In this document: positions 2,743 to 26,590 of the stretch, piece after piece
How positions within the stretch are numbered: position 1 is the stretch's first letter
How the letters are laid out: every line of letters starts with the position of its first letter
Assembly: GCA_016871855.1 (NCBI GenBank)
Contig: VHBQ01000025.1
Coordinates: forward strand, 1-41,325
Direction: 5' to 3'
From: Gemmatimonadota bacterium
GTDB lineage: Bacteria; Gemmatimonadota; Gemmatimonadetes; Gemmatimonadales; Gemmatimonadaceae
DNA length: 41,325 nt
Made by a program: the position numbers and the translations under genes
Notes under the pieces: generated by a model
What the model saw: the letters and a program-made list of their open reading frames with translations, nothing else
What the model was told of the DNA's origin: nothing
Databases searched by the model: none

Positions 2743-3695
2743 TTGACTCACCTTAAGCACCTCCCGCTCGGCTACGGCGGCGAGTTCGCCATCATCTCGG
2801 CGGCGCTCAAGCGTTGGGGGGCGCTGGCCTCGGGGATCGGCGACGACTGTGCGGTGCTCGACGTCCCCGCGGGGGAGCGCCTCGTGCTGAGCGTGGACAC
2901 GGCCGTCGAGGGCGTCCACTTCCGGCGGACGTGGCTCTCGCCTGAGGAGATCGGCTATCGCGCCACGATGGCCGCGCTCTCTGATCTGGCGGCGATGGCC
3001 GCCACTCCGATGGGCGTCGCCATCGCCCTCACGCTTCCCACCGGTTGGAAGGACGAGTTCCTCGCGCTCTGCGATGGTATCGGCGAGGCGACGAAAGCGG
3101 TGGGCGCGCGCATCATCGGCGGCGATCTGTCGCGCGGCGCTGACTTGTCGCTGTCGCTGACCGTCGTCGGCCACGTGGCGACGCCGCTTTCGCGCGAGGG
3201 CGCCCGACCCGGCGACGCGATCTGGGTCACCGGGGCGCTCGGCGGGCCGCTGCTTGCCCTGCGCGCCTGGGAGCGCGGCGAGACTCCGGACGCGACGGCA
3301 CGCGCGCGATTCGCACGCCCCACGGCGCGCTTTGACGCGGCGCGCTGGCTCCTCGCGCACGGTGCAACGGCGGGGCTCGACCTCAGCGACGGCCTGCTCT
3401 CCGACGCGGGGCACCTCGCCGCGGCGGGCGGCGTGCAGCTCGTCGTGAATCTCGACCGGCTTCCCGCGTTGGCCGGCGCCACCGCTGAGGACGCGGCGCA
3501 GAGCGGCGAGGAGTACGAGCTGCTCGTGACGGGCCCTGCGTCGCTCGACGCCAAGGCATTCGAGGCGGCGTGCGGCCTGCCGATCACCTGCATCGGCGCG
3601 GTGGTCCCGCCGCTCCCAGGCGAGCCGCTGGTGGAGGCGCTGCGCCACGGCGCGCGCGTTGCGGTCCCGCGCGGGCACGATCACTTCCCGTCACC

Positions 3696-3699
<4 letters not shown>
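2743..3699 (+). CDS. thiL: Thiamine-monophosphate kinase
   Basis: Phosphorylates thiamine monophosphate to thiamine pyrophosphate with ATP, the last step of thiamine cofactor synthesis. The 318 aa match the usual ThiL length (about 310-350). Visible family motifs in order are GEF near the N-terminus, GIGDDCAVLD (metal and ATP site), SVDTAVEGVHF, ALSDLAAMAATPMG, GGDLSRG and DLSDGLLSD. The start is a TTG. It is chosen because ThiL proteins begin just before the GEF motif and the first in-frame ATG lies far inside the conserved core. No Shine-Dalgarno is visible; the upstream tract is C/T-rich. The stop overlaps plsC by 4 bp. No THI box lies in front of this gene, although one controls the TonB receptor at 13.3 kb. 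Confidence 0.93.
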
Positions 3700-6451: not shown

Positions 6452-6525
<74 letters not shown>

Positions 6526-6616: not shown

Positions 6617-7219
6617 TTACCGCCCGCTCGCCGATGCGATCAGCACCACGAAGCGACGCCCGCTCACGATGAACGGCATGCCTTCGGGGGCGCGCTGGGC
6701 CATGGCCTCGGCGAGCTTCGGGTCGTCTCCCGTCACGCTGATGCCGATGACGCGAGCGCCGGTGACGGTGTCGGCCGCGTACTCCCACGCCAGCCGATAG
6801 CGCGCGCGGGCGAACGACACGTCGCCGGGGAGGAAGGCCAGCATCCCGGGCGGCACGACGCCGGCCCGACCCGGAGGCGGCCATTGCCGCTGCGCGGCCT
6901 GGTAGTACAGCAGGGCGGCGGTCCGCGCCTGCTCGGCGTCGTTCAGGGCGGCGGCGGCATCGCCCCAGCGGCGCCAGCCGTCGGGCCGCGGGGCGATCAG
7001 CCGAATGGCGATCACGGCCAGCGCGATCCACGTCGCCCAACGAATGAGACCGGCGTTCGCCGTGGACCACGGCACGTCCGCGCGTTCTGGCGCGCGGGCC
7101 TCGGTGACGCGCGCACGCCGGCGTCCGTCGGGGCGAGGCTCCGATGGGCGCGCCCCGCTTCGCGGTTCGCGCGAGCGCTCACCCGTGCGCGGCTCGGAGC
7201 CCGGTCCCGGTCCGGTCAT
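6617..7219 (-). CDS. Hypothetical single-pass membrane protein, second gene of a pair
   Basis: Not recognised. 200 aa from an ATG that overlaps the stop of the upstream gene (ATGA), so the two are probably co-translated. Residues 1-50 are a polar Arg/Glu/Pro/Gly-rich cytoplasmic tail; one membrane segment lies at about 57-76. The remainder (77-200) is a small soluble domain with a helix (DAAAALNDAEQARTAALLYYQAA) and strands ending in GRRFVVLIAS. Size, one N-terminal membrane helix followed by helix and sheet, and pairing with a similar neighbour recall pseudopilins. However, no prepilin cleavage site is visible and the long N-tail is atypical, so this remains a loose suggestion. A longer frame upstream of 7219 overlaps the neighbour and is rejected. 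Confidence 0.68.
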   Translation of the reverse strand: MTGPGPGSEPRTGERSREPRSGARPSEPRPDGRRRARVTEARAPERADVPWSTANAGLIRWATWIALAVIAIRLIAPRPDGWRRWGDAAAALNDAEQARTAALLYYQAAQRQWPPPGRAGVVPPGMLAFLPGDVSFARARYRLAWEYAADTVTGARVIGISVTGDDPKLAEAMAQRAPEGMPFIVSGRRFVVLIASASGR

Positions 7220-7752
7220 CGCGATGGCCCGCCGCCGCTCAGCAGCGCGTTGAGCGATTCGATGGAATCGTACGTGACGGACGCCGCGCCGTCTGACGCG
7301 GCGAGCGTGAATCGGTCGGCGTCGACCACCACGTAGCGCACCCCGTTGCGCACGTCCCCACCGGCCTCGGCCAGCGTTTCGGGGAGACGCCCCACGGCGT
7401 CGCGAAACGCGATGATCCGGGCGGCGTCGAGCGCGAGGGTCAGGCGCAGGGCGACGACGCGCTGCTCCGCCGGGCGCGCTGGAGTTTGCAGGCGGGGCAG
7501 CCAGGGCGGCGGTGCGAAGAGCATCCACCCGGCGATCGCGACGGTCAGGCCCGCGTTGACTGCACGCAGCAGCGGGCCGCGGTCCACCGGCGGCTTGGCC
7601 TGCTTGGCCATGGCCTCGCGCGCCTGGTCAGTCGTGATCGACTGCGCGATCTCGTACGCCCGTTGCAGCGCCTGCTTGCGCAGGTCGGCCTCGTTGGGCG
7701 GCACGTAGTTCTCGTCCGGGTACGGACGCTTGAAGAGATCGTCTTGGGGCAT
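7216..7752 (-). CDS. Hypothetical single-pass membrane protein, pseudopilin-like C-terminus
   Basis: Not firmly recognised. 178 aa; ATG at 7752 preferred over the adjacent TTG at 7755. Residues 1-60 are polar and charged (DLFKRPYPDENYVPP, then a helix rich in Gln/Ala/Glu), a membrane segment lies at about 64-81, and a Pro-rich linker follows. Residues 100-165 (ALDAARIIAFRDAVGRLPETLAEAGG, later YDSIESL) resemble the pattern of soluble pseudopilin domains, where a helix is followed by GRLP and a small sheet. No prepilin peptidase site is seen. It forms an overlapping pair with the next gene and sits between two tRNA genes that read the other way. Confidence 0.7.
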   Translation of the reverse strand: MPQDDLFKRPYPDENYVPPNEADLRKQALQRAYEIAQSITTDQAREAMAKQAKPPVDRGPLLRAVNAGLTVAIAGWMLFAPPPWLPRLQTPARPAEQRVVALRLTLALDAARIIAFRDAVGRLPETLAEAGGDVRNGVRYVVVDADRFTLAASDGAASVTYDSIESLNALLSGGGPSR

Positions 7753-7838
7753 CAATCAATGACGATTGGCGCGGGGAGACCGTTGCGAAAGTGGGGACGG
7801 CGGCAGCGAACCGCCGTGGCGGCGCGTCGTCGAGGGGT

Positions 7839-7866
7839 TTGAGTCGGCGCACGCTCCCGGTATATT
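7839..7866 (+). promoter_or_regulatory. Promoter of the second CAU tRNA
   Basis: -35 TTGAGT (7839-7844), 16-bp spacer, -10 TATATT (7861-7866), about 11 bases before the mature tRNA. The same -35 hexamer is used by the riboswitch promoter at 13104. Confidence 0.7.
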
Positions 7867-7877
7867 AATAGGCTTGC

Positions 7878-7951
7878 GGCTGGGTAGCTCAGCTGGTGAG
7901 AGCGCACGACTCATAATCGTGAGGTCGAGGGTTCGATCCCCTCCCCAGCTA
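7878..7951 (+). tRNA. Elongator tRNA-Met (CAU)
   Basis: Cloverleaf of 74 nt without encoded CCA. Acceptor 7878-7884 with 7944-7950 (first pair G-T), D stem GCTC/GAGC, anticodon stem CACGA/TCGTG with loop CTCATAA (CAT at 7912-7914), T loop TTCGATC, discriminator A7951. Lacks the three G:C pairs of the initiator. A CAU anticodon could instead be lysidine-modified tRNA-Ile2, but the acceptor and body resemble elongator Met genes more closely. Confidence 0.88.
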
Positions 7952-7962
7952 CTCCGAAGTCC

Positions 7963-7997
7963 GACCCCGCTGGCGGAACCCGCTGGCGGGGTCGCAC
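7963..7997 (+). terminator. Probable terminator after tRNA-Met
   Basis: 8-bp GC-rich stem GACCCCGC/GCGGGGTC (7963-7970 with 7986-7993) enclosing a smaller GCGG/CCGC stem, followed by only a short T run. Position right after the tRNA supports the call; the weak T tract lowers confidence. Confidence 0.55.
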
Positions 7998-8008
7998 GTT
8001 TCAGGATC

Positions 8009-9496
8009 TTGTCTGCCACCGCCCCCCGCCCGGCGCGACCGTGTCGCGTGCTGGTCACCGGTGCCACCGGCTATATCGGCGGCCGGCTGGTGCCGTACCT
8101 CCTCGAACGCGGCCACCTCGTGCGCTGCGTGGCGCGCAGCCCTGAACGCCTCGCGGCCCACCATTGGTCCGGCGTTGAGATCGTGCACGCCGACCTGGAA
8201 GAGCCGGCGGTCTTCTGGAACGCGCTCGATGGCATCGAGGTCGCGTACTACCTGGTGCATTCGATGGCGGTGGGCTCCGCCTATCGCGAACGCGACCGCC
8301 AAATGGCGCTGCATTTCGCCGAGGCCGCCGCGCGCGCGGGCGTCCAGCGCATCGTCTACCTCGGCGGCCTGGGGGATCAGGAAGAGGCGCGCGAAGCGCA
8401 CCTGGCGTCGCGCCAGGAGGTGGGGCGGTGCCTAGCCTCCACCGGGGTCCCCGTCGTCGAGTTCCGCGCAGCCGTGATCGTCGGGTCGGGGAGCGCGAGC
8501 TTCGAGATGATCCGTCACCTCGTGGATCGCCTCCCGGTGATGATCGCCCCCACGGCGATCAACACCCGCTGCCAGCCGATCGGTATCCGATCGGTGCTCG
8601 AATACCTCGTAGCGGCGCTTGATCATCCCACGGCGCAGGGTGTCTACGAGATAGGCGGCACCGACGTCCTCACCTACCTCGAGATGATGCGCCGGTACGC
8701 ACGCATTCGTGGGCTGCGCCGCCTCATCGTGCCGTTCCCGGTGCCGCTCCCCAAGCTTGCTGGCCACTGGGTCGACTTGGTGACGCCTATTCCGTTCAGC
8801 ATCGCGCGCCCGCTGGTGGAGAGCCTGAACACGCAGGTGGTGGTGCGCAGCGACGCGGCGCGCACGACCTTCGCGGTGCGCCCCACCGGCTACGACGACG
8901 CCGTGCGGCTCGCGCTGGCGCGTATGCAGGAGGGCCGCGTCCCCACGACGTGGGCGTCGAGCCTGTCGTCCTACTCGCCCGGACAGGGCGACGCCGACTT
9001 CCTCAGCGCGCACGAAGGAATGATGCTCGACCGCAAGCGCCGCGTGGTGGCCGCGCCGCCGGAGCGCCTCTTCGAAGAGATCTGCCGGCTGGGCGGCGAC
9101 GCGGGATGGCCGGCGGGCAACTGGCTCTGGCAGTTGCGCGGCTTGATGGACCGCCTCACCGGCGGCGTCGGGATGCGCCGCGGGCGCCGGCATCCGCGCG
9201 AACTGCGCGTCGGCGATCCCGTGGATTTCTGGCGCGTCGAGGCGCTTGAACCGCCGACGCTGCTGCGTCTGCGCGCCGAGATGAGGCTCCCCGGAAGCGC
9301 GTGGCTGCAGTTCGAGGTCCAGCCGGACCCGCAGGGGAGCCGCGTCGAACAGACAGCATTCTTCGAGCCGCACGGTCTGCTTGGCGCGCTCTACTGGTAC
9401 GCGGTGCTGCCGTTCCACCGATTCGTCTTTCCCGGAATGGTCAACTCGATCAAGGCACGCGCCGAGGGGCGGGAACAGCCCCTCGGCGCGGCGTGA
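8009..9496 (+). CDS. SDR-type NAD(P)-binding protein with C-terminal DUF2867 domain
   Basis: Two-domain protein of about 495 aa. The N-terminal part (to about residue 320) is an atypical short-chain dehydrogenase/NmrA-like Rossmann domain with VLVTGATGYIG at residues 14-24, YYLVHSMAVGS and IVYLGGLG. From about residue 330 a DUF2867 region follows (GMMLDRKRRVVAAPPERLFEEICRLGGDAGW, FWRVEALEPPTLLRLRAEM), ending in ALYWYAVLPFHRFVFPGM, a probable helix. Such fusions are widespread in actinobacteria and related GC-rich genomes; substrate is unknown. The start is uncertain: TTG 8009 is two bases from an AGGA, and GTG 8048 is possible but begins right at the first strand of the Rossmann fold. The upstream open frame overlaps the tRNA and is rejected. 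Confidence 0.85.
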   Translation: MSATAPRPARPCRVLVTGATGYIGGRLVPYLLERGHLVRCVARSPERLAAHHWSGVEIVHADLEEPAVFWNALDGIEVAYYLVHSMAVGSAYRERDRQMALHFAEAAARAGVQRIVYLGGLGDQEEAREAHLASRQEVGRCLASTGVPVVEFRAAVIVGSGSASFEMIRHLVDRLPVMIAPTAINTRCQPIGIRSVLEYLVAALDHPTAQGVYEIGGTDVLTYLEMMRRYARIRGLRRLIVPFPVPLPKLAGHWVDLVTPIPFSIARPLVESLNTQVVVRSDAARTTFAVRPTGYDDAVRLALARMQEGRVPTTWASSLSSYSPGQGDADFLSAHEGMMLDRKRRVVAAPPERLFEEICRLGGDAGWPAGNWLWQLRGLMDRLTGGVGMRRGRRHPRELRVGDPVDFWRVEALEPPTLLRLRAEMRLPGSAWLQFEVQPDPQGSRVEQTAFFEPHGLLGALYWYAVLPFHRFVFPGMVNSIKARAEGREQPLGAA

Positions 9497-10186: not shown

Positions 10187-12988
10187 TTAGCCGTCGACCT
10201 TCAGGTGGGGCTGGGCGGAGGCGACGCCGCGATCGATGGCCCGGTCGAGCGCCGCGCGCACGTCGTCGAGCTTAGTGGGCTTGCTCACGAAGTCGTCCAT
10301 CCCCGCAGTCAGCGCGCGATCGCGCTCCTCGGCAAGCGCGCTCGCCGTCAGCGCAATGATCTGCACGTGGCGCCCGCGGCGCTCCGCCGCGCGCACGCGC
10401 CGTGTCGCCTCGTAGCCGTCAAGGTGGGGCAGGTGGCAGTCCATCAGCACGACGTCGTACTCGCGCAGCAACGCCTTGTCCACCGCCTGCAGACCGTCAG
10501 TCGCCAACTCGACCTCGCAGTTGAGCGACTCGAGCATCTTGCGCGAGATGATCTGGTTGACCTTGTCGTCCTCGACGAGGAGCACGCGCAGGCGTGCCCG
10601 CGCCTTGGCGCGCGGCATCGGGAGTGAGCTCTGCCGGGCGGCATCGCGCGCCGACGCGACCTGCTCGGCGAGCAGGTGCTGCGTAAGAAGCGGTGCGTTG
10701 GCCGGGGGCGGGCCGCCCGCGCGACGGGCGAGCACAGCCTCGATCATCTGCTGCAAGGTGTCGGCACGCAGTGGCTTGGGGAGGTATCCGTCAAAGCCGG
10801 CCGCGCGGAACTTCATCGCGTCGCCGCGAATGGACGCCGAGGTGGCGATGATAAGTCCGAGGCCATCGTGCGCGCGGTCCGCGCGCACGACGCGCCCCAC
10901 GCCCTCACCGTCCGCGCCGGGCATCATGTAGTCCACGACGGCAACCAAGTACGGGTCGCCCTCGCCATGCGCGCGGCGGATCTCCTCGAGCGCGGCGTTG
11001 CCGTCCATCGCGCTTCCCACGCGCATGCCCCACGAGGTCAGCCGCTCGCGCAGCACGCGCAGGCCGACGTCGTTGTCGTCGATGATCAGCGCGCGCACGC
11101 CCCGCAACTCGTGAGCCGGCGGCGGCAGCGGCACGGCGTTGGGATCAAGCGGCAGCGTCACGTGGGCGCGGAAGACGGAGCCGACGCCGAGCGTGCTTTC
11201 CACCGCGAGTTCGCCGTGCATCAGGTCCACGAGGCGCTTGCTGATGGACAGGCCGAGGCCGGTGCCGCCGAAGCGACGGGTGGTGGACTGGTCGCCCTGC
11301 TCGAATGGCGAGAAGAGCCGCGCCACGCGATCCGGGGCGATCCCGATGCCCGTGTCGTGCACGCTGAGGGTGATCGCGGCGTGCCCGTCGGCGGCCGGCT
11401 GCCCCTCGACCTCGATCAGGACGTGGCCGTGCTCGGTGAACTTCACCGCGTTGCCGGCGAGGTTGAGGAGGACTTGGCGCAGGCGTCCGCTGTCGCCGAT
11501 CAGCCGGCGCGGCGTTTCGGGCGCGATGCGCACCACGATCTCCGTCCCCTTCTCCCGCGCCCGTGGCGCGATGAGATCGGCGACCTCAGCCACGGCGATG
11601 TGCAGGTCGAATGGGATGGGGTCGAGCCCCAGCTTGCCCGCCTCGATCTTGGAGAAGTCGAGGATGTCGTTGATGACGCTCAGCAGGTGGTCCGCCGAGC
11701 GCTGCGCGGTCTCAAGGTACGATCGCTGCTCGGCGGTGAGCGTGGTCTCGGCGAGAAGCGCGTTCATCCCGATCACGCCGTTCATTGGCGTGCGGATCTC
11801 GTGGCTCATCGTCGCCAGAAACTCGCTCTTTGCGCGCGACGCGGCTTCTGCCTGGTCCTTGGCCGCGCGGAGCGACGCCTCGGCGGCCTTGCGCAGGGTG
11901 CGCTGGCGCTGCGCCCGTCGGCGGTTGGCGACAGCGACGAGACCGTTGAGCAACAGGACGCCGCACAGCGTGCCGTAGAGCCACCGCAGAATGCGCGCCT
12001 GCGCGAAGGCCTCGGCGACCTCGAGTTCGAAGACCAGCCCGGCGTCGATCTCCGGGATGAACGTCCACGAACCGACGACGGTTGCACCGCGGTAGTTGCG
12101 GTAGCCGCGCATATCCACATCGGTCGAGCCCTGCGTCACGAGCGAGGCGGCGCGCGTGAGCGGCCATTGCGCGGCCGTCGCCGGCGTCACCGTGCGTCCC
12201 TCAAGTGGCGAGCCAGGGTCTCGCACGGGCTCCTGGAAGGCCGGCGAGCCGGACCCCGGCGCCTGCACGCCGGATCGCATGAGCGACGAGCCGAAGCGCG
12301 GCACGCTGGCGAAGAGCCCGTCCCGTCGGACCAGATAGACATCGCCGGTGCGCCACGTCTGGCTCACGTCGATGCGCACGGCCATCGGCGCGTCGAAGGT
12401 CACGGCTCCCAGGTGACGGCCTCGGGCGTCCTGCACCGGCGTCGCGATGGTGACGAACGGTTCGCCGGCTAGCAGTCGTTCGCCCGAGACCTCGGCGTCG
12501 CGCGGCAGCGGAGACGGCGCGCTGACCACCGTGTTGCTGGCGACGGCGCGATGCAGGCGCGGCGTGTCGCGCCAGCGCGCGGCCGCCTCCTCGCGCGAAA
12601 GCCCGATGGCCAGCGCGACGCGGCCCGTCGAGTCCACCAGCGTCCAGTTGAGCCACCCCTGCGTCTTGAGCGCGGTGGCCAGCGCGCGCTCGGCGGCGCG
12701 AATGGCGGCCGCGTCTCCGCGCCCCTCAAGCTGGCCTCGCAGGGCGGGGAGCACGTCGGGGGCGCTGGCGAGGGCGACGCTCGCCCGCACGAGGTCGCGA
12801 TGCCAGCGGTGGATCTCGGCGCGCCGTTCATCGCGGCGTGAAGTGAGCAGCGCCTCGTCGGCCTCGCGGATGCGCGCCTCGAGCAGAGCAAGCGACACGG
12901 CGCCAACGATCACGGTGAGAGAGAGCGTGACCCAGACGAAGGCGCGCGCGGCGGCGCGAGAATTGAGGAGGTCGCGAATGAGAGGCAT
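10187..12988 (-). CDS. Hybrid sensor histidine kinase with two receiver domains
   Basis: Inner-membrane sensor of 933 aa. A membrane segment (about 17-37) and a second (about 333-354) bracket a periplasmic sensor of about 290 residues that looks like a double-Cache domain ([25 protein letters not shown]). Then come HisKA with phosphorylatable His396 in [10 protein letters not shown], and HATPase_c with NAVKF (N-box), DTGIGI and GGTGLGLSI. The first receiver has Asp686 (VVDYMMPG) and the second Asp850 ([11 protein letters not shown]) with Lys903 near the end. No Hpt domain and no DNA-binding output are present, so the phosphate must pass to a separate protein. It diverges from the TPP-riboswitch/TonB receptor unit; its partner regulator is not in the window. 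No Shine-Dalgarno at the ATG. Confidence 0.92.
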
Positions 12989-13103: not shown

Positions 13104-13132
13104 TTGAGTCATCCTTCGCGCGGCATTACCAT
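13104..13132 (+). promoter_or_regulatory. Promoter of the TPP riboswitch transcript
   Basis: -35 TTGAGT (13104-13109), 17-bp spacer, -10 TACCAT (13127-13132). Expected start near 13139, three bases before the first paired base of the aptamer at 13142, a good positional fit. Confidence 0.65.
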
Positions 13133-13141
13133 TCACAGATA

Positions 13142-13226
13142 GCCGCCAGGGGTGAGGCGCGCGGCTGCGCCTCTGAGAAAGTCCCTTGGAACCTGATCCG
13201 GATCACACCGGCGTAGGGAGTGCGGC
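13142..13226 (+). promoter_or_regulatory. TPP riboswitch (THI-box)
   Basis: Thiamine-pyrophosphate aptamer. Conserved elements appear in the right order: P1 strand GCCGC (13142-13146), GGGGTG (13149-13154), a variable GC hairpin, CTGAGA (13173-13178), ACCTGATCCGGAT (from 13191), ACCGGCGTAGGGA (from 13207) and the closing P1 strand GCGGC (13222-13226). It is followed by a terminator hairpin 20 bases later, so TPP binding most likely causes premature termination. An alternative pairing is visible: GAGTG (13218-13222) with CACTC (13255-13259) plus GGCG (13224-13227) with CGCC (13248-13251). It would break both P1 and the terminator and would serve as antiterminator when TPP is absent. Aptamer call is from conserved sequence; the switching mechanism is inferred. 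Confidence 0.93.
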
Positions 13227-13246
13227 GTGTCGCGGCGGTCCCCGTT

Positions 13247-13279
13247 GCGCCACCCACTCGGCCGGGTGGCGCTTTGTAT
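13247..13279 (+). terminator. Terminator of the TPP riboswitch expression platform
   Basis: 9-bp GC stem (13247-13255 with 13264-13272), 8-base loop, then TTTGTATT. It lies between the aptamer and the start codon at 13337 and overlaps the putative antiterminator pairing. Confidence 0.8.
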
Positions 13280-13336
13280 TGGGCGTCGCCTGGACGGGCC
13301 CACTTCCGGATCGCAACCGTGCAACGCGAACCGGCC

Positions 13337-15382
13337 ATGCCATCTCTCATCCTTCTCGTCGCGGCGTCGCTGGCCGTGCAGGCCCCGCAAACGCCCGACT
13401 CGGCGCGCGCCGCGCGCACCGACACGCTGGAACGGGTGACCGTGCGCGCCGTGCGCGCGGGCGGCGCGGCCCCGGTGACCGAGCGCACGATCACGCGAGA
13501 GGAGCTGCAGCGCGGGTACGCGGGGCAGGACGCGCCGCTCCTGTTGACCCGCGTGCCGGGGATCACGGCGTATTCCGAGAGCGGCTCGTTCACCGGGTAC
13601 AGCTACCTGCGCTTGCGCGGGCTTGACCAGAACCGCATCAGCCTCTCCTTCGACGGGATTCCGCTCAACGATCCCGAGGATCAGGCGTTCTATTTCTCCA
13701 ACGTGCCCGACTTCGCGAACAGTGTGCAGTCGGTGCAGGTGCAGCGCGGGACCGGCACGAGCGCATTCGGCGCGGCCTCGTACGCGGGCTCCGTCAACTT
13801 CCAGTCACTCGACCTTGCGGCCGCGCCGCGTGGCGGGGAGCTGCAGCTCACCGCGGGCGCGTTCGACACGCGTCGCGCGGCGCTGCAATGGCGTTCGGGG
13901 CTGACCGGTGGCCGCTGGGCGATGGCGGCGCGAGCCTCCGCGCACGAGACCGACGGATTCCGGCGGAACTCGGGGAACAACGCCTCGTCGGGCTTTCTCT
14001 CCGCGGCGTGGTACGGCGATCGCGATGTGGTGAAGTTCACCGCGTTTGCCGGGCTGTCCAAGCTGCGCTCGTCGTACTACGCCGCCGACGAGGCGACGGT
14101 GCGCGCCGATCCCCGCGCGAATCCGATGTCCCCGAACGAGCGCGACCGGTTTGCGCAGGTCTTCTGGAATCTGCAGCACGTCCGCGCCGTGGGCGCGCAC
14201 GCGGTCTGGACCACGACCGTGTATCGCCAGGGGGCGGGGGGGTGGTTCGACGTCCGCGTGGATCCCGACCTCTGGCGGTTCAACCTGTCGTACACGTGGC
14301 ACGGCGCGCTGAGCACGTACTCGTATCGTCGTGGCGCGGTGGCGGTGGACGCCGGCGCGCACGTGATGCGCTACCATCGGGACCACTTCCTCACGATCTG
14401 GCCGGAACTTGGCGACCGAGTGTACGACAACACCGGTCACAAGAACGAGCAGTCGGCCTTCGGGAAGGTGCAGTGGACGCGCGGCCGCGCGACGTGGTTT
14501 GGCGACTTGCAACTTCGTCGAGCCGCGTTTCGCTACGAACCCGTGGTCGCCCTGTCGGCGGGCGCGCCGGCCTCGGCGGAGCCGTCGGTGGACTGGGTGT
14601 TCCTGAATCCGAGAGTCGGCCTGTCCTGGCGGCAGGCGGCGCGCCTTTCGCTGTTCGTCTCGGTCGGATCGGTGCGGCGCGAACCGACGCGGGACGACAT
14701 GTTCGCCGGCTCGGACCATCTCGACGCCAGCAATGCGCCGTCCATCCTGCCGCTCGACCGGGTGCGCCCCGAGCATGTCGTGGACTACGAAGCGGGGGCG
14801 ACTTGGACGACCGCGACTCTGCGGGCCTCAGCCAACCTGTTCGCCATGGAGTTTCGCGAGGAAATCGCCGCGGTAGGCGCGCTCAGCCTCACGGGGTCGC
14901 CCCTGCGGGTAAACGTCGGCGGCTCGCATCGGCGCGGCGTTGAGGCCGAGGTGCGGTGGCAGGCGACGCCGGCGTTGGCGATCGACGCGGCAGTTGCCCT
15001 GACCGAGGCGCGCATCAAGCGATTCGTCAACGCCGGCACCGGCGAGGCCTATCGCAACGTGCGCTCCCGGCTCACGCCGCGGGTTGTGGCGACGCAAGGT
15101 GTCGTCTGGCAGATGGGCCGCGGCATTTCCCTGGAGAGCGAGGCGCGCCAGGTCTCGGCGTCGCCGCTGACGAACACCGGCGACCGACGCGCGACACTGT
15201 CGGCTTACGTGCTCTTGGACGGCGGGCTGTCGTGGGTCCGCGGCGCGGCAAGCCTGTCCGTGCGGCTGCACAACGTGCTGGACCGCCTGGCGTTCGGCGG
15301 CGGCTACGCGAGCGAGGGGACGAACTACGTCTTTCCGTTCGCGACGCGCCACCTGATGGTGACCGTGCGGCGTCGCTTCTAA
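13337..15382 (+). CDS. TonB-dependent outer-membrane receptor, probable thiamin/thiamin-precursor uptake
   Basis: Outer-membrane beta-barrel of 681 aa with an N-terminal signal peptide (about 16-20 residues). The plug domain has the typical run RGLDQNRISLSFDGIPLNDPE, then VQRGTGTSAFGAASYAGSVN. A barrel of alternating strands follows, with the C-terminal phenylalanine (final RRRF) needed for outer-membrane assembly. Known family role: active uptake of a scarce solute driven by TonB-ExbB-ExbD. Because a TPP riboswitch with terminator stands directly upstream, the solute is probably thiamin, its phosphates or a precursor; this is inference from regulation, since barrel sequence does not show specificity. 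ATG at 13337 is chosen since earlier in-frame codons lie in the terminator. No inner-membrane thiamin transporter is present nearby. Confidence 0.9.
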   Translation: MPSLILLVAASLAVQAPQTPDSARAARTDTLERVTVRAVRAGGAAPVTERTITREELQRGYAGQDAPLLLTRVPGITAYSESGSFTGYSYLRLRGLDQNRISLSFDGIPLNDPEDQAFYFSNVPDFANSVQSVQVQRGTGTSAFGAASYAGSVNFQSLDLAAAPRGGELQLTAGAFDTRRAALQWRSGLTGGRWAMAARASAHETDGFRRNSGNNASSGFLSAAWYGDRDVVKFTAFAGLSKLRSSYYAADEATVRADPRANPMSPNERDRFAQVFWNLQHVRAVGAHAVWTTTVYRQGAGGWFDVRVDPDLWRFNLSYTWHGALSTYSYRRGAVAVDAGAHVMRYHRDHFLTIWPELGDRVYDNTGHKNEQSAFGKVQWTRGRATWFGDLQLRRAAFRYEPVVALSAGAPASAEPSVDWVFLNPRVGLSWRQAARLSLFVSVGSVRREPTRDDMFAGSDHLDASNAPSILPLDRVRPEHVVDYEAGATWTTATLRASANLFAMEFREEIAAVGALSLTGSPLRVNVGGSHRRGVEAEVRWQATPALAIDAAVALTEARIKRFVNAGTGEAYRNVRSRLTPRVVATQGVVWQMGRGISLESEARQVSASPLTNTGDRRATLSAYVLLDGGLSWVRGAASLSVRLHNVLDRLAFGGGYASEGTNYVFPFATRHLMVTVRRRF

Positions 15383-15410: not shown

Positions 15411-15704
15411 ATGAACCCGCCCCCTATCCCTCGCGGCGAACGCTCCCGACTCGACGGACTGGCCTTCGGGCTGCTCGCGCTCGGTGTCGTCGCCTTCCTT
15501 TCGCTCTCGACGCTGCATCGTGTGCAGCGCGAGCGTGCCGATCAGGCGGCGACGGTCGTCGCCCTTGGGCAGGACGTGCGGCTCGATCTCAAAGGGGCGC
15601 ACATCGCCGTCAAGGAGTTCGTCGCCGGCGCGACGAACGTGAATCCGGCCATCGATGTGGACGCGCGCTACGCGCACGCGCTGCGGTTGATCGACCAGTT
15701 GTAG
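15411..15704 (+). pseudogene. N-terminal part of the hybrid kinase, cut off by an in-frame TAG
   Basis: 97 aa starting at an ATG 28 bases after the TonB receptor stop. Contains a membrane segment (about residues 14-34, GLAFGLLALGVVAFLSLS) and the beginning of a helical periplasmic domain (VQRERADQAATVVALGQDVRLDL). It ends at TAG 15702-15704. The same reading frame continues without any other stop through 15705-15791 into the kinase at 15792. A TATCTT sequence about 9 bases before the ATG may be a -10 box of its own. On its own this would be a membrane stub; joined across the TAG it supplies TM1 and the first half of the sensor domain of the following gene. Confidence 0.75.
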
Positions 15705-15791: not shown

Positions 15792-18488
15792 GTGTCCGCG
15801 TTGCGCGAGCTGGCCATCGCGTGCGCCGCGGCCGCGCGTTCGGGCCGGCCAGCCGAACCGTCGCTCGCGCGCCGCTACGACGCCGCGCTGGACGCGGCGT
15901 TGCTCGAGGCACGCGGCGTCAGCGAGATGCTGCTCGCCAGAGTCGCCCGCTTCGCCATGCTCGCGAAGCGGATGGACGCCGTCGCCGACGTCGTCGTGGC
16001 CTTGGTCTTCGTGCTGAGCGCGGCGCTGATCTGGCGCCAGCGGCGCCGGCAGGCCGGCGAACTGCGTCGATTGTCAGAGGAGGGGACCTCCTCGGCGCGC
16101 GACGCGCTCTCCCGCGAGGCACGCGCCCGCGCCCTGCTCAACTCCACCATCGACGCCATCATCGCCTCAGACGAGCTGGGTCGCATCACCGGCTGCAACC
16201 CGGCGGCCGAGCGTCTCTTCGGCTACGCCGAGCGCGAGCTGCTGGGCCAGCAGGTGCGCGAGTTGACCGGCGAACCCTATCGCTCGCGGTCGCCTGAGGT
16301 GCTCGGCGCGTACTTTGCGCGGGCGCGCGAGAGCAGCCGTGGGGTAACCGAAATCGTGACGGGGCGCCGCCGGGACGGTCGAGAGATGGTCCTCGACATG
16401 TCGTTGAGCGCGGTCACGGTCGGCGGTGAACTCTCGTACATGGCCGTCGTGCGCGACATCGGCGAGCGTGTCGCCGCGGAACAGCGCTTCCAGGCGATTT
16501 TCGACCACGCCACGTCGGCGCACTTCCTGCTGCGCGGCGCGTCGGTCACCGACTGCAACGAGGCCGCCGTGCGGCTGTTCGCCGCGACCGACAAGGGCGC
16601 GCTCTCGGCGCTTGACCTGCCCGCGCTCCTCCCCGAGCACCAACCCGATGGCGACGTTTCGGCGACGGTGGCCGAGGGGCACCTCGCGCGTGACCGGGCC
16701 CACGGCGCGCATGTGGTGGAACTGCAGTGCCGCCGGCTCAATGGCGAGCTGTTCGCCGCGGAGATGACCTACACCCCGGTCGAACTCGAGGGAGAGGCGA
16801 TCACGCTGCTTGAGGTTCGCGACCTGACCGAACGCCGGCAGAGCGAGCAGGCGCTGGTGGTCGCCAAGGAGACCGCCGAGAACGCCGCGCGCGCCAAGAG
16901 CCAGTTCCTCGCCACGGTGTCGCACGAGGTGCGCACGCCGATGAACGGCATCATCGGCATGACGGGGCTGCTGCTCGAAAGCGAGCTGGACGAGCAGCAG
17001 CGGCAGTACGCGCACGCCATCAAGACGTCGTCCGACTCGCTGCTCACGATCATCAATGACATTCTCGATTTCTCGAAGGTCGAGGCGGGCAAGCTGACCC
17101 TCGAGCCACTGCCGTTCGATCTGGTCGGCACGTTGGAAGAGGCCTGCGACATCATGGCGCCCGCCGCCGATGAAAAGCGGCTGGCGCTGGCGCTGCATGT
17201 CGGCCGCGGGGTGCCGACGCGGCTGGTGGGCGACGGCGGACGCATCCGTCAGATGGCGCTCAACCTCCTGTCCAACGCCGTAAAGTTCACAACGTTTGGC
17301 CACATCGTGCTGGAAATCGAGGTGATCGAGCGGCGCGGATCCGACGCGATGGCGCGGCTCTCGGTGCACGACACAGGCATCGGCGTGCCCGAGGCGGTGC
17401 AGTCGCGCATTTTTGAGGACTTCTCGCAGGCCGATGCCTCGATGTCACGCCGCTTCGGCGGCACGGGACTCGGGCTGGCCATCACCCGTCGGCTGGCCGA
17501 GATGATGGGCGGCGCGGCCGGCTTCCGCTCCGTGGAGGGGCGTGGATCCTCGTTCTGGGTGACGCTGCGACTGAGCGTGCCGCCCGACGCCCATGAGGCG
17601 TCGCCCGCGCCAGACCTGGCGGGGCGTCGAGTGCTGGTGGTGGACGCCCACGATGTCACGCGGCGCGCCATCGCGCAGCGCATCGAGGGATTTGGGGCGA
17701 CGGTGGATACCCGGGCGATGGCCGACCACGGGCTCCAGCTGCTCCGTCAGGGTGCGGCGGGCGGGCAGCCGTACGACGTCGCCTTCGTCGAGTACGGCAT
17801 TCGCACGGCGGAGAACGACGACTTTGTGCAGGCGATCCGCCGCGAGCGCGCCATTGCCATCACGCCACTGGTGCTGCTCGTGCGGTCGAGCGACGGATTT
17901 GCGGCCGGCGCGGCGGCGCCCGTCGGGTACGTGGACATGGTCACCAAGCCGGCGCGGGGCAAACCGCTGCTCGCGGCCATGCGCGCCGCGCGCGCCGCGC
18001 GCGAGCGACATCGCAACCCCGAAGAGATCACCGACCCCAAGCCGATCCCGCGTCGGAAGTCGAGGGTTCGCTCCGCCGCGGACGCGAAGGCGAGCGCGGC
18101 CTTCAGTGGGATGTCCATCCTGCTCGCCGAGGACAATCCCGTCAACCAGATGGTGGCCAAGGCGATGCTCGAGCGCGCGGGATGTGTGGTGCAGGTGGCC
18201 GCGGACGGCGCGGCGGCGGTGAAGACATCAGAGGGGGAGGCGTTCGATCTGATTTTCATGGACTGCCAGATGCCGGTCCTCGACGGCTACGCAGCGACGG
18301 CCGCCATCCGCCGGCGGGAGGGCGACGCGGCACACACGCCGATCATCGCGATGACCGCGAATGCCATGCCGGGCGACAGGGAGCGCTGCCTCGCCGCCGG
18401 TATGGACGACTACATCGCCAAGCCGATCGACGACGCGGTGCTGCGCGCGGCGCTCGAGAAGTGGGGCGCGCAGGGATCCGTGGAGTGA
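15792..18488 (+). CDS. Hybrid sensor histidine kinase with two PAS and two receiver domains (5' end separated by TAG)
   Basis: As an intact frame from GTG 15792 it is 898 aa. The rest of a helical periplasmic domain (1-60) is followed by a membrane helix (64-81), and two PAS domains (about 115-225 and 230-345). HisKA has His378 in [10 protein letters not shown]; HATPase_c has NAVKF, DTGIGV and GGTGLGLAI. The first receiver (about 612-735) carries Glu667 (FVEYG) where the phosphorylatable Asp should be. The second, normal receiver has Asp824 (FMDCQMP) and Lys877. In-frame coding continues upstream to 15411 except for one TAG; the joined protein would be 1025 residues with two membrane helices. 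Translation from 15792 is doubtful because it lacks a Shine-Dalgarno and would start in mid-domain. The gene may be a recent nonsense allele. No output domain, so it must act through a partner. Confidence 0.85.
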
Positions 18489-24514: not shown

Positions 24515-26590
24515 ATGTCCGATCTGCCGCCCGAAGTTCGCCCCGCACCTCCAGTCGCCGAGCGCCGGCGCACGGTCCTGACGCTCCACGGTGAAGCCCG
24601 CCTGGACGACTACGCCTGGCTCCGCGAGCGCGACAACCCCGAGGTGACCGCCTACCTCGAGGCGGAGAACGCGTACACCGCGGCGATGACAGCGCACACC
24701 ACGCCGTTGCAGGAGCAGCTCTATGCCGAGATGCTCGCCCGCATCCAGGAGGATGACGCGACCGTGCCCGTCCCGCGCGGCGAGTGGCGGTACTACACGC
24801 GAACGGAGAAGGGCAAGGCGTATCCGATCTTCTGTCGGATGGCACAGGCAGAGGCGGGGGCAGCGAGCAGCGGAGCAGCGGAACGGGCACGGGAGCACGT
24901 GATCCTCGACCAGAACGCGGAGGCCGAGGGGCGCGAGTTCTACCAGCTCGGCGCGTTTGAGGTCAGTCCCGACCACCGCCTGCTCGCGATCCTCGAGGAC
25001 ACCGCCGGCTACGAGGACTTCACGCTCCGCGTCCGCGACCTCTCTACGGGGGAGTGGCTCCCCGATCGCCTGGAGAAGCTGGGCTTCGGACTGGCCTGGG
25101 CGTCGGACAGCCGGACGATCTTCTACACGACCACCGACGAGGCCAAGCGCTCCGATCGCGTCTGGCGTCACGCGCTGGGCGCGCCGCGCGATCAGGACGC
25201 CGAAGTCTTCCACGAGCCCGGTGTGCTGAACAACGTCGGCGTCCACCGCGCGCGGTCCGGAACCCACGTTGTGATCACGTCGGCCTCGTTCACCGATGGC
25301 GAGGCGTGGTTGGTGGACGCCGTGCGCCCGGCATCGCCGCCCGCACTTGTGCGCGCGCGGCGCGCGCAGGTGGAGTACGATGTGGAGCCGGGCGACGGCT
25401 GGCTCTACGTCTGCACCAACGAGGAGGCGCCCAACTTCAAGGTGATGCGCGCGCCGCTCGACCGCCCCGGCGCGTGGGAAGAGTGGCTGGAGCACCGCCC
25501 CGACACCTTCGTGGAAGGCGTGCTCGTCTTCAAGCGGTTCGTCCTCGTGCAGGAACGCCGGTCCGGCCTGCGCACGCTGCGCGTGACCGACGTCGCGCGC
25601 AACGAGACGCACTACATCGAGTTTCCGCAGGCGGCGTATGGCGTGCAGCTCGGCGCAAACCCCGAGTTCGACCAGCAGGCGCTCCGGTTCACGTACTCCT
25701 CACTCGCCACGCCAGACACGGTCTTCGACTACGATCTGGCCACGCGCGCGCGCATCGAGCGCAAGAAGGAGCCAGTGCTCGGCGGCTTCGACGAGTCGCG
25801 CTACGCCATCGAGCGCTTGGAGGCGACGGCCCGCGACGGCACCCGCGTGCCCATTTCGCTGGTATACCGAACGCCCTTCGCCCGCGACGCATCGCGTCCG
25901 CTCCTGCTGTACGCCTACGGGTCGTACGGCTTCACCATGGAGCCGACGTTCAACTCCCAGCGTATCTCGCTGCTCGATCGCGGCTTCGTTTACGCCATCG
26001 CCCACGTGCGCGGTGGCCAGGAGATGGGGCGCGCCTGGTACGACGACGGCAAGATGATGAAGAAGCTGAACACCTTCACCGACTTCATTGATGTCGCCGA
26101 GCATCTGGTGCGCGAGCGGTACACGTCGCCGGAGCGATTGGCGGCAAACGGCGGAAGCGCCGGCGGCTTGTTGATGGGCGTCGTCGCGAACCTCCGCCCC
26201 GACCTGTTCCGCACCATTGTGGCCGACGTGCCGTTCGTGGACGTGATCAACACGATGCTCGACGACTCCATCCCGCTCACCGCGCAGGAGTGGCTGCAGT
26301 GGGGGAATCCGCAGGAGTCCGAGGCGTACGCGTACATGCGCCAGTACTCACCGTACGACAACGTGACCGCGCAGGCGTACCCGCGCCTGCTCGTCACCAG
26401 CGGCGTGAACGATTCGCGCGTGGCGTTCTGGGAGCCCGCCAAGTGGGTGGCGAAGCTGCGGGTGACCTCAACCGGGACGCAGCCGCTGCTCCTCAAGATG
26501 AACATGGGGGCAGGGCACGGCGGGGCGAGCGGGCGCTACGAGCGCCTGCGCGAGACGGCGTTCAGGTACGCGTTCATTCTGGAGCAGTAG
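24515..26590 (+). CDS. ptrB: Oligopeptidase B (prolyl oligopeptidase family S9A)
   Basis: Serine peptidase of 691 aa cleaving short peptides, in this subfamily after basic residues; no signal peptide, so cytoplasmic. An N-terminal helix and beta-propeller (to about 415) precede an alpha/beta-hydrolase domain. The catalytic triad is visible: Ser548 in GGSAGG, Asp633 in SGVNDSRV and His668 in GAGHGG. EWLQWGNP and YAYGSYGF are typical of the PtrB branch. Residues about 111-125 form an Ala/Glu/Ser-rich low-complexity stretch encoded by near-repetitive AGCAGCGGAGCAGCGGA sequence, longer than usual for the loop before VILDQNAEAEG. Divergent from the hotdog gene; the 116-bp gap has an ATCC/ATCG-rich tract ending in CCTAA ten bases before the ATG. 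Converges on the amidase with a 7-bp gap. Confidence 0.93.
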   Translation: MSDLPPEVRPAPPVAERRRTVLTLHGEARLDDYAWLRERDNPEVTAYLEAENAYTAAMTAHTTPLQEQLYAEMLARIQEDDATVPVPRGEWRYYTRTEKGKAYPIFCRMAQAEAGAASSGAAERAREHVILDQNAEAEGREFYQLGAFEVSPDHRLLAILEDTAGYEDFTLRVRDLSTGEWLPDRLEKLGFGLAWASDSRTIFYTTTDEAKRSDRVWRHALGAPRDQDAEVFHEPGVLNNVGVHRARSGTHVVITSASFTDGEAWLVDAVRPASPPALVRARRAQVEYDVEPGDGWLYVCTNEEAPNFKVMRAPLDRPGAWEEWLEHRPDTFVEGVLVFKRFVLVQERRSGLRTLRVTDVARNETHYIEFPQAAYGVQLGANPEFDQQALRFTYSSLATPDTVFDYDLATRARIERKKEPVLGGFDESRYAIERLEATARDGTRVPISLVYRTPFARDASRPLLLYAYGSYGFTMEPTFNSQRISLLDRGFVYAIAHVRGGQEMGRAWYDDGKMMKKLNTFTDFIDVAEHLVRERYTSPERLAANGGSAGGLLMGVVANLRPDLFRTIVADVPFVDVINTMLDDSIPLTAQEWLQWGNPQESEAYAYMRQYSPYDNVTAQAYPRLLVTSGVNDSRVAFWEPAKWVAKLRVTSTGTQPLLLKMNMGAGHGGASGRYERLRETAFRYAFILEQ

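Follow-up and report, generated by a model that had tools for sequence, protein, structure and literature searches.

A TonB-dependent receptor for thiamin under riboswitch control has been described in Bacteroides thetaiotaomicron. There, OMthi (BT2390) lies downstream of a TPP riboswitch and has PnuT as its partner, and the receptor is reported to be needed at low thiamin when thiamin synthesis has been deleted (PMC5613172). PnuT there comes with a thiamin pyrophosphokinase (TPK; tnr3), and the host makes thiamin. The predicted thiamin receptors in a survey of TonB-dependent receptors were also assigned by a riboswitch or a pnuT neighbourhood (PMC2771747); the locus analysed here is likened to them by context, not by sequence. 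A riboswitch-controlled thiamin receptor is thus of a known kind, and no description of one for Gemmatimonadota was found in the literature searched.

The window analysed is a stretch of 41,325 nucleotides from a metagenome-assembled genome (MAG) of the Gemmatimonadaceae, referred to below as the family; the phylum Gemmatimonadota, suggested earlier from the sequence, is borne out. On the basis of sequence comparisons, we hypothesise that it carries a TPP-repressed thiamin uptake gene, a reading to which we give a probability of nearly nine in ten. The locus resembles the OMthi system in having a TPP riboswitch, and a PnuC/PnuT-family gene is present in the genome. It differs in the partner enzyme: no TPK (PF04263) was found in 148 family genomes, whereas there is a ThiL, and PnuC has a NadR-kinase-like protein beside it.

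The riboswitch and the receptor

The aptamer occupies positions 13138–13237 on the forward strand. A search of the whole window with the covariance model RF00059 gave a full-length match of 63.5 bits (gathering score 54.3; E = 2.5e-10), covering model positions 1–105, and the identical match was obtained from a 601-base search (E = 3.7e-12). This is the only RF00059 match in the source MAG. The check confirms the TPP riboswitch that had been predicted from the sequence. The family contains 137 such riboswitches in the genomes sampled, of which 92 precede the receptor found here and 34 precede thiC (126 together); the other 11 are eight thiM-type loci (four tested by Pfam, four by N-terminal likeness only), one pnuC and two without an assigned gene. 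Membership of RF00059 (the THI element) is supported both by the curated gathering score, which is exceeded, and by the thiamin genes downstream in relatives (thiC, thiM-type and pnuC). The leader differs from the THI element in combining, downstream of it, a terminator, a long read-through hairpin, a clamp and a start-codon hairpin.

The gene that follows (13337–15382, forward strand) encodes a protein of 681 residues, here annotated as a predicted thiamin(-phosphate) receptor. Its ATG at 13337 is aligned in all ten genus members compared, and the stop codon is at 15380–15382. The original description as a TonB-dependent receptor holds, with both the barrel (PF00593, 1.9e-17) and the Plug domain (PF07715, 6.7e-14) above cut-off. 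By eye, the N-terminus looks hydrophobic, and a TonB-box-like string can be made out. A PDB search with the receptor sequence alone gave no match at 0.001.

The receptor is found in 95 of the 148 family genomes sampled, with a riboswitch directly upstream in 92 of the 95. In the sister family four receptors were found; two were examined, and both have the riboswitch upstream. Among curated models, the receptor scores best with those for siderophore and heme receptors, albeit far below cut-off, as might be expected if the riboswitch were a decayed remnant ahead of a siderophore or B12 receptor unrelated to it. That explanation is extremely improbable, given that the receptor gene occurs once per genome (at E 1e-20) and almost always behind a riboswitch, and that the leader 5' of it is strongly conserved.

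Thiamin uptake and thiamin synthesis

Thiamin had been proposed as the probable substrate from the riboswitch of this one gene. The case is now much stronger, in that most family riboswitches precede this receptor and most of the remainder precede thiC. Among the 148 genomes, 91 have the receptor only, 40 have ThiC only, four have both and 13 have neither (Fisher p = 2.9e-20, uncorrected for kinship). In genera g2, g13, g14 and g24, species within the same genus differ in having the receptor or ThiC. In the genus of the window, none of ThiC, ThiE and TPK was found in any of 11 genomes, and ThiG was above cut-off in none, with weak matches in two; the 11 genomes on which these genus-wide absences are based are 78–99% complete. 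Single gene absences in the source genome mean little, because the MAG is 85.6% complete. The receptor is present in 10 of the 11 and ThiL, the thiamin-monophosphate kinase that carries out the last step to TPP, in all of them. In the window, ThiL is encoded on the same contig as the receptor (2743–3699, forward strand; TIGR01379, 235.8 bits against a cut-off of 184.15, with AIRS domains). A published study describes thiamin synthesis as much less prevalent in Gemmatimonadales (PMC10469786).

Auxotrophs thus very probably take up their thiamin through this receptor. The receptor might instead import TMP, TPP, HMP or thiazole, which also belong to thiamin metabolism, since the riboswitch senses TPP and not the imported substrate, and the thiM-type genes behind eight family riboswitches imply that precursor salvage exists in the family. 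We consider this improbable. With ThiE found in none of the 11 genus genomes, precursors could not be joined there, and 90 of the 95 receptor-bearing genomes also have a PnuC-family gene; a PnuT is reported to carry thiamin (PMC5613172). TMP or TPP might nevertheless be what the receptor takes up. The source genome also has a PnuC-family gene, and the order TPP riboswitch, receptor homologue, pnuC, kinase is seen in 10 loci, mostly from Acidobacteriota.

A generic receptor and its homologues in 95 of the 148 family genomes sampled thereby gain a probable substrate. Thiamin auxotrophy is predicted for most of the 95 genomes, consistent with PMC10469786, and the near-exclusion of receptor and thiC would provide a genome-readable marker of B1 consumers and producers.

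The leader and its possible switching

Receptor leaders were collected from three genera (36 in all), and 25 of them, picked by the sequence just before the ATG, were aligned; five of 13 leaders from g19 and six of 13 from g23 never entered the alignment. Pairs were counted in 17 of the 25, from two genera, after dropping G118 (from the genus of the window) and seven g23 leaders; g23 was omitted because its alignment was judged unsafe by eye. RNAalifold gave no useful consensus on the three genera together, and helices were therefore tested individually, by name, on two.

A strict sigma-70 scan reported no promoter at the leader, and a comparison within the genus was used instead. This upholds the promoter originally proposed, placed here at 13104–13132 (forward strand), with a -35 box TTGAGT (13104–13109), a 17-nt spacer and a -10 box TACCAT (13127–13132). 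All ten genus members have a -10-like box 8–10 nt 5' of the aptamer, with spacers of 16–17 nt, and seven of them have TTG at -35. The summed score of 77 for the ten (kinship uncorrected) compares with a mean of 15.2 and a maximum of 40 in 200 single-base shuffles.

The P1 helix of the aptamer is formed by 13138–13146 and 13222–13231. Its five core pairs are invariant in the 17 leaders, and the extended P1 is 89.5% paired overall. The intrinsic terminator predicted at 13247–13279 was also recovered, extending to 13280 (forward strand): the stem 13247–13255. 13264–13272 is followed by UUUGUAUU, and a terminator scan found two overlapping sites where 0.3 were expected. Eight of ten genus members pass the terminator criterion. 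Eight of the nine stem pairs never vary in the 17 leaders, and the ninth is broken in five.

A candidate antiterminator spans 13218–13259 (forward strand). Of the pairing first suggested, 13218–13227 with 13248–13259, the outer half (13218–13222. 13255–13259) and the inner half (13224–13227. 13248–13251) can both pair in 17 of 17 leaders from two genera, but equal values were reached in 237 of 500 shuffles, so that this is conservation and not proof. The outer stem has one two-sided change. The inner half has a competitor in a longer hairpin, 13227–13238. 13242–13253, whose basal seven pairs are 97.5% paired and upper four 81.3%, and which dominates the folding of RNA ending at 13256–13264. 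As a refinement, the antiterminator may consist of the outer stem closing this longer hairpin.

Three further elements of the leader (all forward strand) were absent from the original prediction. A read-through hairpin, 13259–13296 (13259–13272. 13283–13296), takes up the 3' arm of the terminator; its 14 pairs are 92.4% paired in the 17 leaders, with five pairs changed on both sides, and the window's own sequence has one mismatch. A clamp (13216–13307) pairs GGGAGUG at the 3' end of the aptamer (13216–13222) with CACUUCC (13301–13307), is 92.9% paired and has one pair with a two-sided change. A start-codon hairpin, 13306–13334 (13306–13314. 13326–13334), ends 2 nt before the ATG. No covariation was seen in P1, the terminator or the start-codon hairpin in the 17 aligned leaders.

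We propose that the RNA begins near 13138. When cytoplasmic TPP is abundant, it would bind the aptamer and hold the extended P1; the 5' arm of the terminator would then be free, and transcription would end near 13280. In any RNA that read through, the start-codon hairpin would be able to form. At low TPP, the 3' end of the aptamer would pair onward into the candidate antiterminator and the polymerase would pass, after which the read-through hairpin and the clamp would lock this state and allow the receptor to be made.

Some observations, among them the lack of covariation in P1, the terminator and the start-codon hairpin, count against this reading. The U tract is imperfect, two of ten genus members fail the terminator criterion, and in equilibrium folding without ligand the terminator wins (0.90–0.99) once its 3' arm is transcribed; in the full-length RNA (to 13344) it has 0.87 against 0.12 for the read-through hairpin. 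Antitermination would therefore have to be kinetic. In B. thetaiotaomicron, no significant change with thiamin is reported for transcripts of the riboswitch-linked receptor and pnuT (PMC5613172), which likewise counts against the proposed reading. The switch could instead be mainly translational, with TPP binding leaving the start-codon hairpin intact and the 13247–13272 stem acting as a structural spacer only. The weak U tract fits this, as does the start-codon hairpin, which is 99.3% paired in the 17 leaders of two genera, although these were partly chosen by pre-ATG sequence that is itself part of it. Moreover, 16 of 92 family leaders have no room for a terminator, because the script-assigned start lies no more than 20 nt from the aptamer core. 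We nevertheless regard a mainly translational switch as rather unlikely. An unbroken stem with a U tract is present in eight of ten genus leaders and in 14 of 92 overall, against a mean of 1.6 and a maximum of 4 in 20 shuffles, and in at least five further g19 leaders an equal stem is interrupted by a single mismatch and followed by a U-rich tail.

From the receptor to TPP

In the uptake route that we favour, the receptor would let thiamin, or one of its phosphate esters, through the outer membrane, and the PnuC-family protein encoded elsewhere in the source genome, presumably a PnuT, would carry thiamin over the inner membrane. A kinase would then make TMP, which ThiL would convert to TPP. 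Two known enzymes were rejected for the phosphorylation: TPK, since PF04263 is found in none of 148 family genomes (7 of 14 control genomes are positive), and ThiK (TIGR02721), for which none of the 148 is above the curated cut-off, with 57 weak matches and one of 14 controls above.

A candidate lies outside the window. In Gemmatimonadota and Acidobacteriota, a NadR-kinase-like (AAA_28) protein is encoded beside PnuC at loci that follow a TPP riboswitch; it is fused to PnuC once, in Vicinamibacterales, and found beside thiB/thiP five times. From this gene context, the AAA_28 protein next to PnuC/PnuT is probably a thiamin kinase, unrelated to ThiK and TPK, that converts thiamin to TMP for ThiL to finish and has so far been taken for a nicotinamide riboside kinase. 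In Gemmatimonadota, Acidobacteriota and some Gammaproteobacteria, it would supply the step missing between receptor and TPP, and the annotation of many PnuC/NadR-like pairs would then be corrected.

The main rival is that it is indeed a NadR-type nicotinamide riboside kinase. Its nearest solved relatives are the ribosylnicotinamide kinase domain of NadR (PDB 8x7f, 1lw7, 6gye; best E 2.4e-24), from which it differs in that the protein of the source genome has only 179 residues, comprising the kinase part without an adenylyltransferase domain, and its relatives are linked to thiamin genes. Bifunctional NadR itself was rejected on this domain composition and on TIGR01526 (90.2 against 341.15 bits). 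A tree was built from 97 rows less one fragment, with TPP labels taken partly from a pattern scan; the label 'other' is not a negative set, because it includes family loci whose riboswitch lies beyond the sequence covered. The TPP-linked kinases are not united in a clade that excludes every unlabelled one (19 changes). They do all fall in a 74-row part of the tree, away from 22 rows consisting of Bacteroidota and one Neisseria, a split placed by midpoint rooting with support 99/75.

A TPP riboswitch ahead of a TonB-dependent receptor

The leader of the receptor gene contains a TPP riboswitch aptamer (13138–13237, + strand), which scores 63.5 bits with the Rfam model RF00059 against a curated cut-off of 54.3 (E 2.5e-10 over 41 kb, both strands) and is recovered again in a search of 601 bases (E 3.7e-12). 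The original prediction had read an aptamer here and named this model as its check. It is the only TPP riboswitch in the window, and no second one is found in the whole genome of origin (2.99 Mb in 159 contigs, 85.6% complete). It is followed on the same strand by a gene for a protein of 681 residues (ATG at 13337, stop at 15382), and matches to PF00593 (1.9e-17) and PF07715 (6.7e-14) bear out the predicted TonB-dependent receptor. The finding is real, and the first reading is right in substance: this is a known kind of system, and it is well supported.

Both flanking genes encode histidine kinases (10187–12988, − strand; 15792–18488, + strand), leaving the receptor without a thiamin gene next to it. 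Elsewhere on the contig, at 2743–3699 (+ strand), is the gene for ThiL, which phosphorylates TMP to TPP. In the downstream histidine kinase gene (15411–15704 and 15792–18488, + strand) an in-frame TAG at 15702–15704 separates off about 97 N-terminal codons, which means that translation starts later, that the gene has decayed or that the assembly is wrong here. Two tRNA genes 1.4 kb apart (6452–6525 and 7878–7951, + strand) both apparently have the anticodon CAU.

The linkage extends across the family. Using RF00059 with stricter filters, a match was found in 123 of 148 sampled family genomes, and all 137 listed places were examined. A receptor homologue lies downstream of 92 of them (identity 38–81%, the window's own receptor excluded), thiC of 34, a thiM-type gene of eight, and pnuC of one (genome G064); the last two are a third place in G117 and one at a contig end in G139. 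Four of the thiM-type genes were identified by Pfam (G086, G109, G008, G024) and four by N-terminal likeness only (G022, G069, G050, G100). Conversely, the receptor is present in 95 of the 148 genomes (E ≤ 1e-20, one match per genome), and in 92 of these a riboswitch is found on the same strand no more than 450 nt upstream. The three others are G034, G057 and G067; in the first two the receptor stands behind pnuC and a kinase gene on the same strand, so that a riboswitch further up would escape the 450-nt test. In an evenly drawn sample of 249 genomes from the phylum, the receptor occurs in 67 (E ≤ 1e-30), comprising 63 from this family and four from one genus of a sister family, where the riboswitch lies just upstream of the receptor at both loci examined.

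No description of this arrangement in Gemmatimonadota was found in searches of open-licence PMC papers. Thiamin genes were the subject of a comparative genomics paper of 2002. In Bacteroidetes an outer-membrane receptor under a TPP riboswitch (OMthi, BT2390) occurs with pnuT-tnr3, and the transport transcripts showed no significant change with thiamin (PMC5613172). A TonB receptor-like gene reportedly lies in a TPP-riboswitch operon of Variovorax (PMC10409787), and a survey of TonB-dependent transporters has predicted, unproven thiamin receptors in several clusters (PMC2771747).

Alternative helices in the leader

The predicted promoter (TTGAGT, 17 nt, TACCAT; 13104–13132, + strand) stands in the comparison of its genus, where a −10-like box lies 8–10 nt before the aptamer in 10/10 members and TTG is found at −35 in 7/10 (summed score 77; 200 single-base shuffles, mean 15.2, maximum 40), although a strict promoter scan reported none. 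From aptamer to ATG the genus alignment is strongly conserved, except in G118, which differs across the terminator.

Helices were counted on 17 leaders from two genera, 9/10 from the genus of the window and 8/13 from g19. In the predicted terminator (13247–13279) eight of the nine stem pairs are invariant, the ninth being broken in five g19 leaders. All 17 leaders allow the competing pairing originally proposed (13218–13227 with 13248–13259), and one of its pairs appears as UA, UG and CG, but this does not exceed shuffles, 237 of 500 reaching the same values. The outer half of this pairing could enclose another hairpin (13227–13238 with 13242–13253), in which the basal seven pairs are 97.5% paired and the upper four 81.3%. 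A read-through hairpin (13259–13272 with 13283–13296), formable only past read-through, is 92.4% paired and has the best covariation, with two-sided changes in 5 of 14 pairs. In the five leaders with the broken terminator pair the base is A, and in two of them this A faces U in the read-through hairpin. A clamp between GGGAGUG of the aptamer and CACUUCC (13216–13222 with 13301–13307) is 92.9% paired, and a start-codon hairpin ending two bases before the ATG (13306–13334) is 99.3% paired in leaders that were picked partly by that sequence.

Taken together, the 13227 hairpin, read-through hairpin and clamp have 8 pairs (15 cells) changed on both sides, above 500/500 shuffles, made with no correction for relatedness, and above all slid versions. 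Their covariation score exceeds 498/500 shuffles, and their number of pair types is not above the 500 shuffles. P1 (the closing stem of the aptamer), the terminator and the start-codon hairpin have no two-sided change in the 17 leaders, and are therefore conserved but unproven by covariation.

In equilibrium folding, the 13227–13253 hairpin dominates RNA ending at 13256–13264 (0.76–0.88), the terminator prevails from 13272 to 13288 even without ligand (0.90–0.99), and the hairpin returns at 13292–13300 (0.75–0.79). Longer RNA is a mixture of terminator and read-through hairpin; in RNA to 13344 these stand at 0.87 and 0.12, the clamp at 0.68 and the start-codon hairpin at 0.73. Free folding gives −101.9 kcal/mol, an enforced aptamer −92.2 and an enforced clamp with both hairpins −96.4, so a ligand bonus is required to hold the aptamer, which fits a switch turned off by TPP. 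TPP riboswitches ahead of uptake genes follow a known logic, and we infer the TPP-off direction by analogy with it; equilibrium folding alone does not give the antiterminated state, and the direction would need kinetics.

The leaders are not uniform in the family. Of the 92 receptor leaders, 14 have a terminator, defined as an unbroken stem with 5 of 8 U, where 20 shuffles give a mean of 1.6 and at most 4. The 14 comprise eight from the window's genus, three from g19, two from g23 and one other; this is an undercount, since in at least five more g19 leaders that stem recurs with a single mismatch, together with a U-rich tail. In 16 of 92 no more than 20 nt separate the aptamer core from the assigned start, and translational control is the natural reading of these; the starts come from a script and are uncertain. 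The leaders of G132, G136, G114 and G120 have a Shine-Dalgarno-like aptamer core, GGAGGGA instead of GTAGGGA. Since only about 10 nt or less lie between it and the assigned start codon in G132 and G120, the ribosome site may be masked by the aptamer itself.

Receptor and thiamin synthesis

ThiC is present in 44 of the 148 family genomes, and largely excludes the receptor: 91 genomes have the receptor only, 40 ThiC only, four both and 13 neither (Fisher p 2.9e-20, odds ratio 0.014, without correction for relatedness). ThiG, with strong matches in 41 genomes, shows the same exclusion, occurring in 2/95 receptor genomes. In genera g2, g13, g14 and g24 some species have the receptor and others ThiC, which suggests that the two have been swapped more than once. 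This family-wide exclusion is a fresh element, as, probably, is the kinase described below. A published survey likewise describes thiamin synthesis in Gemmatimonadales and Longimicrobiales as far rarer than in Palauibacterales; the word TonB is absent from its main text (PMC10469786).

Within the 11 genomes of the window's genus, ThiC and ThiE are not found and ThiG reaches its cut-off in none (two give weak matches). All 11 have ThiL, and 10 have the receptor. As neither half of thiamin is made and there is no joining enzyme, these bacteria would depend on imported thiamin or thiamin phosphates. In the eleventh genome, G124 (81% complete), neither receptor nor riboswitch was found. G081 (2.0 Mb, 91% complete) has riboswitch and receptor, and PnuC and the kinase were not found there, so that either thiamin crosses the inner membrane by a different route or the MAG is incomplete here.

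PnuC and a candidate thiamin kinase

A PnuC-family permease occurs in 109 of the 148 family genomes and in 90 of the 95 with the receptor. A gene for a P-loop kinase of about 180 residues (AAA_28) lies downstream of pnuC in 82 genomes, on the same strand and at most 300 nt away; among solved structures, this kinase comes closest to NadR kinases (E 2.4e-24). At E ≤ 1e-12 it is found in 99/148 genomes, including 88/95 receptor genomes and 10/44 ThiC genomes. Riboswitch, pnuC and kinase are consecutive in G064; riboswitch, receptor, pnuC and kinase are consecutive on one strand in G037, G061, G082 and G113; and the kinase adjoins the receptor with no pnuC nearby in G015, G031 and G043.

TPK (PF04263) is found in none of the 148 genomes by a search that matches 7 of 14 control genomes, and ThiK in none over the cut-off (57 weak matches); ThiL is found in 147 (over the cut-off in 130). 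The step from thiamin to TMP thus lacks a known enzyme among those searched. The linkage to TPP riboswitches in some relatives and in Acidobacteriota suggests that the pair is PnuT with a putative thiamin kinase, and that this is a further kind of thiamin kinase is probable (roughly 0.7). No report linking a NadR-like kinase to thiamin was found in searches of open-licence PMC papers. In the genome of origin the pair lies elsewhere (G000:C17:25036–26132, locus L160 about 7037–8133; kinase 25590–26132) with no riboswitch at that place, and the nearest tree kin of this kinase are those of its own genus, so its thiamin role is inferred from relatives.

A kinase-profile scan of species genomes was analysed for its best 80 loci, 43 by Rfam and the other 37 by pattern scan only. 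Within the stretches examined, 16 of the 43 have a TPP riboswitch and 27 do not, including all five Bacteroidota and all four Desulfovibrionaceae tested among the best 80. Among the riboswitch-less loci there are likely to be genuine nicotinamide riboside systems, an argument against taking the whole kinase family as thiamin kinases.

The first Rfam set, 15 of the best 80 preselected by a receptor or riboswitch-like pattern (mostly Acidobacteriota, two Bacteroidota), has a TPP riboswitch in 11. Ten of these have receptor, pnuC and kinase downstream of it on the same strand; L210, one of the ten, is a 4.6-kb contig labelled Methylococcaceae. The eleventh, L226, has pnuC and kinase downstream and, in between, a 161-residue ORF with a CarboxypepD_reg domain. 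L199, L205, L235 and L244 have a receptor homologue and pnuC, and no riboswitch within the stretch examined. Behind a TPP riboswitch and receptor in a Vicinamibacterales MAG, PnuC and the AAA_28 kinase are fused in one ORF of 373 residues (L206:5416–6537, + strand).

Two further Rfam sets among the best 80 have a TPP riboswitch at 1/13 and 4/15 loci, and these five are gammaproteobacterial or proteobacterial (L223, L239, L245, L248, L258). There the riboswitch comes directly after the end of the kinase gene, which is thus its neighbour but not under its control. All five have thiB and, at least in part, thiP downstream of the riboswitch; curated models identify ThiB in L258, L223 and L248, ThiP in L258 and L223, and ThiQ in L258, and in L239 and L245 the assignments are by similarity. 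Their nearest tree kin, L215 and L221, have neither riboswitch nor thiB within the stretch examined. On the other side, a divergent uracil phosphoribosyltransferase gene is present in all three loci checked (L223, L248 and L258).
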